Virus record (IMG/VR): IMGVR_UViG_3300023082_000025
Span: 1 to 36,611 of that record
Direction: 5' to 3' (one strand)
DNA length: 36,611 nucleotides
Origin: a virus
The notes beneath the pieces were generated by a model that had not been told where the DNA came from, ran no database searches, and saw nothing but the letters and a program-made list of their open reading frames with translations. A program made the position numbers and the translations under genes. Positions 431-33,631 of this stretch are shown piece after piece. The stretch's first letter is position 1; every line of letters begins with the position of its first letter.

Positions 431-459
431 TTGACAGATGATGATTCACAGCATATAAC
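431..459 (+). promoter_or_regulatory. Rightward sigma-70 promoter for the first small genes
   Basis: TTGACA (431-436) and TATAAC (454-459) are separated by 17 bp, an almost perfect sigma-70 promoter. Start of transcription would be near 466, about 44 bases before the 45-residue gene at 510. The -35 lies inside a 13-base sequence (TTGTCGTTGACAG, 425-437) found again, inverted, at the promoter near 33420. Confidence 0.7.
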
Positions 460-509
460 TACTCACACAAGCCAGGTGGTCGGGAACAACGAGATGAGGA
501 GAGAGGGAT

Positions 510-28390: not shown

Positions 28391-28678
28391 CTAAGCCTCC
28401 TGCCGACGTTCATCACAAATCTGGTCGCCACGGTTCTCAGCACTATAATCTTCACCCTCTGGCGCAATTAACTCACGAAGCTTGTCGCGAATCTCTGAAG
28501 CTGGGCGTCCTGCCAGTACCATGGCGAAGATGGTGTAATGCGCTTCCATACCTTCGTTAGCATCATCACAGGCTTCTAGGAATTGACGGTTAAGCAAGCC
28601 ATGAATGCCACGGCTATGTGAGCCTGAGGTAAGAAATACTTCAGCGCCTTGTTCGATTTCTTCTAGGGAAGGTTTCAT
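28391..28678 (-). CDS. Hypothetical protein (95 aa)
   Basis: AAAGGAG precedes the ATG at 28678, and a promoter with a leader hairpin lies just upstream. The product begins MKPSLEEIEQGAEVFL and contains SHSRGIHGLLNRQFLEACDD and AMVLAGRPASEIRDKLREL, all helical, ending in a charged tail. As the first gene of its transcript it may be made early, but the family is unknown. The upstream in-frame part (to 28768) overlaps the promoter and is not coding. Confidence 0.6.
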   Translation of the reverse strand: MKPSLEEIEQGAEVFLTSGSHSRGIHGLLNRQFLEACDDANEGMEAHYTIFAMVLAGRPASEIRDKLRELIAPEGEDYSAENRGDQICDERRQEA

Positions 28679-28699: not shown

Positions 28700-28715
28700 G
28701 CCAACCAATCTTGGC
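28700..28715 (-). promoter_or_regulatory. Leader hairpin at the transcript 5' end
   Basis: On the minus strand GCCAA-gattgg-TTGGC forms a 5-bp stem that begins about five bases after the predicted transcription start (near 28720). It is followed closely by the AAAGGAG of the gene at 28678. A hairpin in the same place, with different paired bases, follows the promoter at 30538-30566. Confidence 0.5.
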
Positions 28716-28726
28716 TCGTGAGAGTA

Positions 28727-28755
28727 TGTATAGATGGAATTGAAATAGTGGTCAA
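28727..28755 (-). promoter_or_regulatory. Leftward promoter before 28678
   Basis: On the minus strand TTGACC (28755-28750, 5 of 6) and TATACA (28732-28727, 4 of 6) are separated by exactly 17 bp. It lies in the 86-base gap before the gene starting at 28678. The early transcribed sequence resembles that of the promoter at 30538-30566. Confidence 0.6.
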
Positions 28756-29133: not shown

Positions 29134-29416
29134 CCTCAACCCTCCTCTTCGCCTGTTGCATAATCCTGAACTTCCTCGTCGTTTCCGCAAACTCAATCAG
29201 CCACTCATCGGGATTAATGTTGTAAATCTGCACTTCTTCTTCGATATCCAACACCAGCGATTCCATCTCTGCGAAGATTGCAGGTGATGGTATGAACTCG
29301 CCTTTGAACGTGTTCTTGACCGTGCGGTAGTCCAGACCTAGAACATCACTCAAGGCTTGGGCTTTGAGGCCAATCTGGGTGGCTAGTTCGGAAAAGCGGG
29401 TGGTGGGATCGTTCAT
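29117..29416 (-). CDS. Helix-turn-helix protein (99 aa)
   Basis: AGGAG lies eight bases before the ATG at 29416. Residues about 8-45 have the Cro/CI-like pattern FSELATQIGLKAQALSDVLG followed by LDYRTVKNTFKGEF, with a recognition helix at about 30-38. The C-terminal part is helical and acidic and then basic, possibly for dimerisation. It directly follows the methyltransferase-like gene, with four bases of overlap, and may regulate it or the local transcript. Confidence 0.65.
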   Translation of the reverse strand: MNDPTTRFSELATQIGLKAQALSDVLGLDYRTVKNTFKGEFIPSPAIFAEMESLVLDIEEEVQIYNINPDEWLIEFAETTRKFRIMQQAKRRVEDEMVL

Positions 29417-29913
29417 AGCAATGGCTCCTGCACCATGGGTGCTTTAGTCTCGATAAAGAGATCTGGTTGATTGTACGCCTCACGGATACGTTTGCATGCT
29501 ATATCAAAGTATTCAAGCTCGCGCTCAATCCCGATGAACTTGCGACCCATCTTCACGCAGGCAACACCCGTGGTGCCGCTGCCCATGAAGGGATCGATAA
29601 TCATTTGGGCTGTTTCAGGTAGAAATCCCATAGTCCATTTCATTAATTGAATGGGCTTTTGGGTCGGATGCTCTTTGCCGCCATCAATACCAACCGCCCT
29701 ATATCTGAAAATACGTGGCGCAAACTTCATGCTAGACCAGCAAAATTCTACTTCTCCAAAATTCAACCCATCAATTTCTTTATCCCAAATAAGATACCCA
29801 ACTGTAGGGGGCAGTGGCAAATGACAGCCGCCACCAATTGCGACGTTCTTTCGTGGGCAAAAAAGCAGAATCCATGTTCCGTCTCTGGGCGCTGTTTCTA
29901 TAGGTTGCCACAT
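29413..29913 (-). CDS. Truncated DNA methyltransferase with DUF551-like N-terminus
   Basis: Residues about 38-150 are the C-terminal half of an N6/N4 DNA methyltransferase: YLIWDKEIDG, then HPTQKP, the SAM-binding DPFMGSGTTGVAC and FIGIERELEYFDIA. Residues 1-20 (MWQPIETAPRDGTWILLF...) are instead the start of a DUF551-type phage protein. The catalytic DPPY/NPPY motif, expected near the N-terminus for this motif order, is missing. The 166-residue protein may therefore be a recombinant chimera, inactive or dependent on a partner. It could still bind SAM. Confidence 0.75.
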   Translation of the reverse strand: MWQPIETAPRDGTWILLFCPRKNVAIGGGCHLPLPPTVGYLIWDKEIDGLNFGEVEFCWSSMKFAPRIFRYRAVGIDGGKEHPTQKPIQLMKWTMGFLPETAQMIIDPFMGSGTTGVACVKMGRKFIGIERELEYFDIACKRIREAYNQPDLFIETKAPMVQEPLL

Positions 29914-30272: not shown

Positions 30273-30491
30273 TTATTCCCCTTTCACCGTAGATTCGTAA
30301 GCATCCCAAGCTTTTTGCAATTCTGCATCGCTGCCGAACTCCATCATGTTCCGTCCTATGTCTGCTTTGCTCATCCACAACCAGAATGTTTCGCCATCCT
30401 CAGTTACTTCAACGCGGCACGCTTCTACGCCACGCGCTTTGCGGTGCGGGTTAAGCTCTATAAATTTAAATGCGATTGATGTTTTAGTCAT
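30273..30491 (-). CDS. Hypothetical protein (72 aa)
   Basis: GGAG lies six bases before the ATG at 30491; an ATG at 30503 is the alternative. The product has AFKFIELNPHRKARGVEACR, VEVTEDGETFWLWMSKADIG and a helical end (SDAELQKAWDAYESTVKGE), which looks like a compact beta-beta-alpha fold. It is the first gene after the promoter and leader hairpin at 30512-30566. Short phage proteins of this form are common and mostly uncharacterised. Confidence 0.6.
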   Translation of the reverse strand: MTKTSIAFKFIELNPHRKARGVEACRVEVTEDGETFWLWMSKADIGRNMMEFGSDAELQKAWDAYESTVKGE

Positions 30492-30511: not shown

Positions 30512-30526
30512 GCAACCCTTCGTTGC
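30512..30526 (-). promoter_or_regulatory. Leader hairpin at the transcript 5' end
   Basis: On the minus strand GCAAC-gaagg-GTTGC forms a 5-bp stem beginning about five bases after the predicted start (near 30531). It stands in the same relation to its promoter and to the block TCACGAGC (30532-30525) as the hairpin at 28700-28715, with a different but still paired stem sequence. Confidence 0.5.
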
Positions 30527-30537
30527 TCGTGAAGATA

Positions 30538-30566
30538 GTTATAATTGAAAGTGTGAGTTGATGCAA
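30538..30566 (-). promoter_or_regulatory. Leftward promoter before 30491
   Basis: On the minus strand TTGCAT (30566-30561, 4 of 6) and TATAAC (30543-30538, 5 of 6) are 17 bp apart. It lies in the 78-base gap between 30491 and 30570. Start predicted near 30531. Confidence 0.55.
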
Positions 30567-31414: not shown

Positions 31415-31684
31415 CTAGTTGGTTATATCGTTTAACGTCTTCCACTCACTCTTCGCCAATCGGTAATACACATGCTTACCCTCACGGCGTTTCTTCAGGA
31501 TACCACCATCCAGTAGTAGCTTTAGCTGTTGGGATAGGGTGGGTTGGGAGATGTTGGATTCAATGCTACCACCTATCATTGTGGCGCATAGTTCATCATC
31601 GAACCAAAGCAACAATTTCACAATCCCCAACCGTACCGGCGTTCCGAGTAGCTTGTAGCGTTTTGCTTGTTTTGTGAGGTTCAT
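31415..31684 (-). CDS. ArsR-type winged-helix regulator (89 aa)
   Basis: The product has the ArsR layout: LGTPVRLGIVKLLLWFDDEL (helices 1-3), then NISQPTLSQQLKLLLDGGIL (recognition helix, about 44-63) and the wing KKRREGKHVYYRLAKSEW. At 89 residues it is near the small end of the family. The metal-binding ELCVC motif is reduced to ELCAT, so it is unlikely to sense metal in the usual way. ArsR-like proteins in phages may act as simple repressors. It overlaps the upstream Nmad5-like gene by four bases. Confidence 0.82.
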   Translation of the reverse strand: MNLTKQAKRYKLLGTPVRLGIVKLLLWFDDELCATMIGGSIESNISQPTLSQQLKLLLDGGILKKRREGKHVYYRLAKSEWKTLNDITN

Positions 31685-32220
31685 TTGATACCTACCAGAG
31701 CGTTGAGATCGGCAGTTAATGTAGCAGGCACTCCCGATGTTTCATTAATTGGCTTGAATTTCTCATAAAACTTCTTGCCTTCTGGCCAAGCCTTCTCAAG
31801 TCCCTTATAGGTGCTAACACTATAAAGAAGTGACCGTGCTTGCGACCGAATCTGATTGTGCTTTACCTTCAAAGCCTCAGTATCAGCATGCCAAGCCAGA
31901 TATTCATCACGCAAAGTGTCATCAGATATATCACCTAGCCGCTGGCAATAGTCGTTAGCGGTAGATTTAACTGGCAATGGTGGTGAAACAGCAACCTTAA
32001 TGTTCATGCCATTAAGATTGAAGCGCAAGCACCCATCCATGCGAATCCAACCCTTATCAAGAGCAGCAGCCTTGTCGCGCTCTGCTTTGGAATAAACATG
32101 CTTCCATAACTTAACGCCAATTTGGTTCTCTCGCTTATTAAGCTTTTCTTTTTCCTTGGCGCAAGTATCCACGGCCATAGCGCCAATTATTTTATCTCTG
32201 ATTTCATTAGTTAGTCTCAT
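31681..32220 (-). CDS. Probable Nmad5-family protein (nucleotide-modification-associated)
   Basis: AGGAGG precedes the ATG at 32220. The 179-residue product begins MRLTNEIRDKIIGAMA, has KLWKHVYSKAERDKAAALDK-GWI in the middle and ends TLTADLNALVGIK. This layout is what I recall of the 'nucleotide modification associated domain 5' family of phages (start M-x-LT-x-x-IR, a GW motif, closing LNALLGL). The biochemical role of that family is not established; its name comes from association with DNA base-modification genes. The assignment is from memory of the pattern. Confidence 0.55.
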   Translation of the reverse strand: MRLTNEIRDKIIGAMAVDTCAKEKEKLNKRENQIGVKLWKHVYSKAERDKAAALDKGWIRMDGCLRFNLNGMNIKVAVSPPLPVKSTANDYCQRLGDISDDTLRDEYLAWHADTEALKVKHNQIRSQARSLLYSVSTYKGLEKAWPEGKKFYEKFKPINETSGVPATLTADLNALVGIK

Positions 32221-32231
32221 CACATCCTCCT

Positions 32232-32738: not shown

Positions 32739-33329
32739 TTAAAATGGAATAGAGTCGTTTAGCTCAACATCATTGCCGTGAACATCTGTCTTGGCTGCTG
32801 GCGTATCGCCGTTCATATAAGCTTTATACTCCGGCGAAGCGTTGATCTTGTCGATAATGAAGTTCGGTAAGTCCATGATAGCCACCATATCCGGCTTACG
32901 CAGGTCGAACATAACGGGCTTAGCTTGCAGCTCAGGCACTTTCTCGTTTGCCTTGAGAGCGGAAACGCCAGTCACCTTAGCATTGCCACCAGACGTGACG
33001 CCAATGTTCAGGTTACAGCCCTTGCCAAGTAATTGGCCAAGATTGAACTTTTTAGGGTTTTGCTCTTTCGTCCACGCTTTATAGTCTTTAGCAAGAGTTG
33101 CCTTCTCGTTGAAGGAAAGCGTATAGGTCTTAATGATGGTGAGTGGGCGGTTATCGTCGGTCAACTCCTCAGGAAGTTCCCAACCGATAATGACTTGGTG
33201 CACTTCTTTCTCGTCACCTTCATAGCTGGTTTTCTGGGTGCCAATATCTGCAATCATGTAGCAGATTCCCGTATGCGTTCCTACGCTAGCTTGTTTGTAC
33301 TTTTTAGTTTCTGAAGCTTCATATTCCAT
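32739..33329 (-). CDS. SSB-like conserved phage replication protein (196 aa)
   Basis: AAGGA precedes the ATG at 33329 (an in-frame extension to 33464 overlaps the promoter). The product follows a pattern common to many phage replication modules: VGTHTGICYMIADIGTQKTS, then VIIGWELPEELTDDNRPLTI and LSFNEKATLAKDYKAWT. The C-terminal end, acidic and closing NDSIPF, is like the tail of bacterial SSB (DDDIPF), which recruits replication and repair proteins. An ssDNA-binding role is inferred from this tail and the neighbouring PrimPol and nuclease genes. Confidence 0.65.
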   Translation of the reverse strand: MEYEASETKKYKQASVGTHTGICYMIADIGTQKTSYEGDEKEVHQVIIGWELPEELTDDNRPLTIIKTYTLSFNEKATLAKDYKAWTKEQNPKKFNLGQLLGKGCNLNIGVTSGGNAKVTGVSALKANEKVPELQAKPVMFDLRKPDMVAIMDLPNFIIDKINASPEYKAYMNGDTPAAKTDVHGNDVELNDSIPF

Positions 33330-33372
33330 ATTGATAGTCCTTGTTGCTTTATGAGGTTTAAGTTCTGTATCG

Positions 33373-33401
33373 TTGACAACACCCGTTGTCTTGCGTAAGA
33401 T
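33373..33401 (+). promoter_or_regulatory. Rightward promoter for the HTH/VRR-NUC cassette
   Basis: TTGACA (33373-33378) and TAAGAT (33396-33401, 4 of 6) are 17 bp apart. Its -10 overlaps that of the leftward promoter. Start predicted near 33408, 35 bases before the GTG at 33443. Confidence 0.5.
33375..33390. promoter_or_regulatory. Inverted repeat GACAAC-N4-GTTGTC
   Basis: A perfect 6-bp inverted repeat with a 4-base centre covers the rightward -35 and extends to the predicted start of the leftward transcript (near 33390). It may be an operator for both promoters, or a 5'-end hairpin of the leftward message, or both. Confidence 0.5.
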
Positions 33402-33425
33402 AGATAAGAACAGAACTACTGTCAA
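33397..33425 (-). promoter_or_regulatory. Leftward promoter for the SSB-like gene
   Basis: On the minus strand TTGACA (33425-33420) and TATCTT (33402-33397, 4 of 6) are 17 bp apart. The -35 lies in the 13-base sequence shared with the promoter at 431 (here inverted, 33419-33431). Confidence 0.5.
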
Positions 33426-33442
33426 CGACAAAATGAGGGCAT

Positions 33443-33631
33443 GTGAAAAAGGCTGATCGGACATTTTACAATGCTACACAAGCTGCTGAATATATGGGTG
33501 TGACCCGGCAACGCTTTTACGTGATTAAAGAGAAGTACCGTATTAGGAAGTGCGAAAAAGGCTACCCAGCCTTAGAGTTAGCCAAAGTGCGTCACCTGAT
33601 GGATAAATGGTTGCGTGCACATGGCAAGTAA
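33443..33631 (+). CDS. Excisionase-like HTH protein (62 aa)
   Basis: GTG 33443 lies four bases after GAGGG. The product has YNATQAAEYMGVTRQRFYVI followed by KEKYRI and a wing-like part (KCEKGYPALELAKVRHLMDK), the layout of HTH_17/excisionase-type winged helices. It points against the surrounding genes. With no integrase visible, it is more likely a regulator of the divergent promoters just upstream than an excisionase. It overlaps the nuclease gene that follows. Confidence 0.7.
   Translation: MKKADRTFYNATQAAEYMGVTRQRFYVIKEKYRIRKCEKGYPALELAKVRHLMDKWLRAHGK

Follow-up and report, generated by a model that had tools for sequence, protein, structure and literature searches.

Predicted mRNA 5′ hairpins with variable stems and a retained fold in an environmental podovirus and an SSB-anchored group of phages

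Several mRNAs of the phage studied here are predicted to start with a short hairpin whose letters vary between genes while its fold is kept, and the same prediction holds for dozens of other environmental phages. This structure is well supported in a group of phages assembled around an SSB-like protein, and moderately supported in the window, by which we mean the whole viral contig that was analysed (36,611 nucleotides). The reading we prefer, and to which we give an even chance, is that the window's hairpins are 5′-terminal RNA hairpins that probably block 5′-end-dependent mRNA decay.

Judged by its terminase, portal, scaffold and coat genes, the contig (36.6 kb, 47.6% GC) belongs to a P22-like podovirus, distant from all known phages (portal and coat identity of at most about 36% among phage records), the early region of which is transcribed mainly leftward. 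A first-pass annotation had proposed two leftward promoters with 17-bp spacers, here S1 and S2, each followed by a common box and then, at equal distance, by a hairpin; all of these elements were found in place [Table 1]. The start box, TCACGAGC, is identical in the two leaders. Transcript starts were predicted from the position of the -10 box only, a 7-nt distance leading to the A of CACGAG, and the predicted start leaves ACGA (about 4 nt) unpaired ahead of either stem. Both hairpins lie at the same offset from their promoters and have 5-bp stems that differ by two compensated pairs, confirming from the sequence that the bases changed while pairing was kept, though in a single comparison. The first gene behind S1, a 95-aa ORF, yielded no match in Pfam, in PHROG or by tblastn in phages. 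Other genes of this region include an Nmad5-type nucleotide-modification-associated protein in the leftward cluster (31681-32223; Pfam PF18757, E 7.8e-21) and a short N6/N4 DNA methylase (29413-29913; Pfam PF01555, 166 aa, the C-terminal part of the profile being matched).

Table 1 Predicted promoters, start boxes, hairpins and associated genes of the window
Feature	Position	Strand	Basis and details
Promoter S1, TTGACC-17-TATACA	28727..28755	-	sequence; -35 28755-28750, -10 28732-28727, 17 bp spacer
Start box of S1, TCACGAGC	28714..28721	-	sequence; predicted transcript start A28719
5′ hairpin of S1, GCCAA-GATTGG-TTGGC	28700..28715	-	MFE -6.4 kcal/mol; arms GCCAA 28715-28711 / TTGGC 28704-28700, loop 6
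ORF of 95 aa, function unknown, first gene behind S1	28391..28678	-	ORF
Promoter S2, TTGCAT-17-TATAAC	30538..30566	-	sequence; -35 30566-30561, -10 30543-30538, 17 bp spacer
Start box of S2, TCACGAGC	30525..30532	-	sequence; predicted transcript start A30530
5′ hairpin of S2, GCAAC-GAAGG-GTTGC	30512..30526	-	MFE -6.3 kcal/mol; arms GCAAC 30526-30522 / GTTGC 30516-30512, loop 5
ORF of 72 aa, function unknown, behind S2	30273..30491	-	hypothetical phage proteins matched weakly by tblastn
Promoter S3 (SSB-like operon), TTGACA-17-TATCTT	33397..33425	-	-35 33425-33420, -10 33402-33397
5′ hairpin of S3, GACAAC-GGGT-GTTGTC	33375..33390	-	arms 33390-33385 / 33380-33375, loop 4
Opposing promoter S3R, TTGACA-17-TAAGAT	33373..33401	+	-35 at 33373-33378; -10 overlaps that of S3
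SSB-like protein, PHROG 862 (phrog_862)	32739..33329	-	its homologues gave access to the group of phages whose hairpins covary
Promoter S4, TTGACA-17-TATAAC TACTCACACAAGC	431..472	+	same start box, without hairpin

The SSB-like transcript had likewise been said to begin with a hairpin, and one is indeed present at the predicted 5′ end of S3, with an unpaired overhang of about 1 nt; its 3′ arm, however, doubles as the -35 box of S3R, a promoter facing the other way. Entangled in this way, S3 argues less strongly for an RNA hairpin than do S1 and S2. The two face-to-face promoters (33373-33425), with their overlapping -10 boxes, lie between the leftward SSB-like gene and a rightward gene (33443-33631) that is a small possible HTH gene by a Pfam match below cutoff, and likely form a regulatory switch. 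S3R had escaped the first-pass annotation, as had the rightward promoter S4, which precedes a 45-aa possible ribbon-helix-helix gene (a weak Pfam match, E 0.054, below cutoff). S4 carries the start box in the form CACACAAGC without a hairpin, and box and hairpin are thus separable. The contig contains exactly three copies of the sequence TCGTTGACA (428-436, 33370-33378 and 33420-33428), each corresponding to a -35 box, namely that of S4, S3R and S3, respectively.

For single leaders of the window it is the position of the hairpin, rather than its folding energy, that carries the information. The S1, S2 and S3 leaders fold no better than their dinucleotide shuffles (z of 0.09, -1.29 and -0.52, respectively), and about 7% of the genome's 26-mers have an energy as low as that of the window hairpins. 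A perfect stem of 5 bp, with its place fixed beforehand, is by contrast seen at 0.7% of the positions in the genome and in 0.5-0.6% of leader shuffles. Five edits lead from S1 to S2 with a 5-bp stem retained at the same start; when the S1 hairpin was randomly mutated to the same divergence, a 5-bp Watson-Crick stem persisted at that start in ~2% of trials. A hairpin-blind scan covering the entire window, which looked for TTG..TA promoters followed by a ribosome-binding site (RBS), returned 22 candidates. Most of these are probably spurious, and only S1, S2 and S3 bear a stem of 5 bp or more that begins 4-12 nt past the -10 box. The S1 and S2 leaders can be aligned beyond the start box (p = 0.0003), and may therefore be copies of one cassette. 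A TATAAT-like site with a terminator-like hairpin (23957-23929) was rejected as a leader since it sits where a gene cluster ends.

Protein-level scans of viral contigs, for which the S1 gene, primase-helicase and SSB-like protein served as queries, returned no close relative of the window, a coat protein search returned two relatives only, at 32% identity, and helicase-alignment scans of viral and genome contigs returned distant relatives without the early region. The start-box pattern matched viral contigs 12 times, never in a relative; one match (L014) is coding sequence, and most of the others resemble chance matches. Given this lack of close relatives in the collections searched, covariation could not be followed in the window's own leaders, and we turned instead to the SSB-like protein (phrog_862) as an anchor. 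Its alignment with four distant homologues recovered 80 viral loci, in many of which the SSB leader has an extended -10 promoter, TGTTATAGT, often with TNTAATTNNG ahead of it. The hairpin starts about 5-8 nt past TGTTATAGT, that is at about +1 or +2 of the predicted transcript, leaving a predicted unpaired overhang of 0-2 nt. Running a promoter-only pattern over 30 SSB-anchored records revealed further sites ahead of other genes. At almost every one of them a hairpin occupies the same place, usually with another stem: one record pairs CGGTC with CTGC, another CGATC with CGAC, and a third GCGGT with CCAC. Among the 9 records that contain at least two hairpin sites, the stems differ between copies in 8, as counted by eye.

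A second promoter-only pattern was run over all viral contigs and its matches pooled with the earlier loci, yielding 73 nonredundant phage sites, 49 of which have an RBS and start codon nearby. Among these GTGTTATAGT promoter sites, picked on promoter and RBS only, 44/49 have a hairpin (a stem of 4 bp or more at the expected position) 5-8 nt later, against a mean of 6.5 and a maximum of 13 in 200 shuffles. Hairpins are also found at 10 of the 24 sites without a visible start, and these ten look like SSB leaders whose start codon lies beyond the 60 nt read. Loops in this group measure 3-7 nt, with A-Y-G preferred at a constant spacing from the start, although ACAA, GAT and CGA, among others, also occur. 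In other phages (L307, L322 and L329), genuine-looking GTGTTATAGT promoters with a TTGACA -35 box and an RBS lack the hairpin. A second hairpin, GTCC-loop-GGAC, is frequent ahead of the RBS of SSB leaders (L238, L243, L210 and L318); in two such leaders (L212 and L222) the RBS itself lies in the loop of the second hairpin (GTCCAAGGAGGAC), an arrangement that suggests translational control.

Covariation was assessed on 24 equal-length leaders (set A5) chosen among hairpin-bearing sites of one length, a selection that inflates the 94% of cells found paired (23-63% in slid registers). Double-changed cells numbered 33, against 10.7 +/- 2.3 after shuffling, and the covariation score reached 0.752 compared to 0.248 in shuffled sets, none of 500 shuffles scoring as high. 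The second pair of the stem is GC in 12 leaders, CG in 6, UA in 5 and AU in 1, and the third is GC in 14, AU in 8, GU in 1 and UA in 1. The sound evidence is this variety of pairs together with the hairpin-blind 44/49 result. RNAalifold predicted no structure for a mixed-length set (A4), because the arms of unequal hairpins fail to align, and only the equal-length set is informative for covariation. Rfam 15 returned no family match at the gathering score for the window and 12 loci.

The arrangement was also sought at 48 clusters of strong consensus promoters from phage and prophage loci, from which the TGTTATAGT family was excluded. Ten of the 48 have a 5-bp stem starting 5-11 nt past the -10 box, compared to a shuffled mean of 1.8 and maximum of 6, and to 1-2 stems in neighbouring 7-nt bins. 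The window's leaders fall within this range, at an offset of 11 for S1 and S2 and of 6 for S3. One of the ten, the SSB-like leader L209, has the GCCAA/TTGGC stem of S1 around another loop. The proposal that selection acts on an RNA hairpin while leaving its stem letters free is thus strongly supported in the independent SSB-anchored group, where the covariation signal is strong and pairing rather than sequence is conserved, and less strongly at consensus promoters. Inside the window, where pairing can be followed through one comparison, the same proposal draws on two leaders plus S3, the latter having a DNA-level alternative, and the start box of S4 is free of any hairpin. We infer that the window's hairpins are of the same kind as those of the covarying group; what would link them is a common architecture and the SSB-like gene rather than leader homology, and the group uses a different promoter.

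In the mechanism that we propose, leftward transcripts would begin shortly before a small RNA hairpin whose fold and position are under selection while its stem sequence is free. The 5′ triphosphate would thereby be concealed from RppH, the host pyrophosphohydrolase, and 5′-end sensing by RNase E would be blocked as well, so that the mRNAs may live longer while the downstream ribosome-binding site stays open. An overhang of about 4 unpaired nucleotides, as predicted for S1 and S2, is borderline for protection in E. coli. RppH and RNase E require single-stranded 5′ ends, hence the stabilization of mRNAs by 5′ structures (PMC3997798). The closest parallels are the 5′-terminal stem-loops of E. 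coli ompA and papA, in which a hairpin sits at the 5′ end of the mRNA or close to it, as is predicted here, with an accessible ribosome-binding site further downstream, and which block access of RppH and RNase E (PMC3997798). Those, however, are single chromosomal leaders, whereas here several transcripts per phage have a hairpin of 4-6 bp tied to a promoter module. The leader hairpin of T4 gene 32, reported in a work cited in PMC8948821 to stabilize its transcript, also belongs to a phage SSB gene. Its CUUCGG loop is absent from the window's hairpins (loops GATTGG, GAAGG and GGGT), and, unlike the gene 32 hairpin, the hairpins described here adjoin the promoter start and recur before unrelated genes with other stems. 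The put antiterminator RNAs of HK022 resemble the present leaders in placing stem-loops near the 5′ end of early phage transcripts, and their two stem-loops recall the paired hairpins of the larger group's SSB-like leaders. The put RNA consists of two long, sequence-constrained stem-loops. The stems found here are, by contrast, short and free to vary, and S1 and S2 have one hairpin each rather than two adjacent conserved stem-loops.

Among other explanations, the one with most life, though we regard it as unlikely, is that the hairpins serve as RNA targets of a protein, from phage or host, which recognizes loop and fold rather than stem sequence and exerts control over translation or antitermination, along the lines of HK022 put RNA or T4 RegA sites. 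It would account for the A-Y-G preference in the larger group, for the presence of the hairpin at several promoters per phage and for the frequent second hairpin ahead of the RBS of SSB-like leaders. Yet loop sequence is only partly conserved, the window's loops are without AYG, stems vary among the copies of one phage, and a candidate protein was not found. Palindromic operators bound by repressors or Aca-type proteins similarly place inverted repeats beside phage promoters, and dyads overlapping promoters commonly serve as operators; the S3 dyad, between face-to-face promoters and beside a small possible HTH gene, and the threefold recurrence of the start box CACRAGC would suit such DNA sites for a dimeric repressor or activator at the transcription start. 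Sequence-specific operators would not, however, be expected to differ in stem among the copies of one phage; the same half-site was not found at each promoter of one phage in 8/9 records, nor in S1 versus S2. Nor would a DNA-bound dimer readily tolerate the 1-bp shift in half-site spacing between S1 and S2 (loop of 6 versus 5). Moreover, the exceptions inside real stems, few in number, are G-U but never A-C pairs. Different stems within one phage, loops of 3-7 and G-U without A-C all fit an RNA fold rather than a sequence-specific operator, and we consider the latter very unlikely.

It is also rather unlikely that the window hairpins arose by chance, or as functionless by-products of a duplicated promoter-leader cassette. 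The extended similarity of S1 and S2, which may share ancestry, would be explained in this way, as would the unremarkable folding energies, the bare S4 and the fact that only two leaders are clean. Against this stand the small proportion of simulations in which random divergence preserved the stem, the 5′-terminal stem of S3, and the selection of the same arrangement in other phages. Protection of the 5′ end remains our preferred reading.

Stabilizing 5′ stem-loops are already known from a few mRNAs. What appears to be new is their systematic, promoter-linked and covarying use across a phage group, no description of such a promoter-hairpin module having been found in the literature searched, many subscription papers being outside the reach of that search. 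This environmental group appears to build a hairpin into most transcripts of one promoter class. A broader proposal, quite improbable in our estimation, is that a widespread phage promoter-leader module, combining a host-type promoter with a free-stem 5′ hairpin and a preferred loop ahead of several operons, constitutes an RNA-level regulon read by a phage factor; if so, that factor would control the stability or translation of a whole set of transcripts. If confirmed, the present findings would mean that phages systematically shield the 5′ ends of their mRNAs from the decay machinery of the host, and would provide a simple sequence signature with which to locate phage transcript starts in metagenomes.
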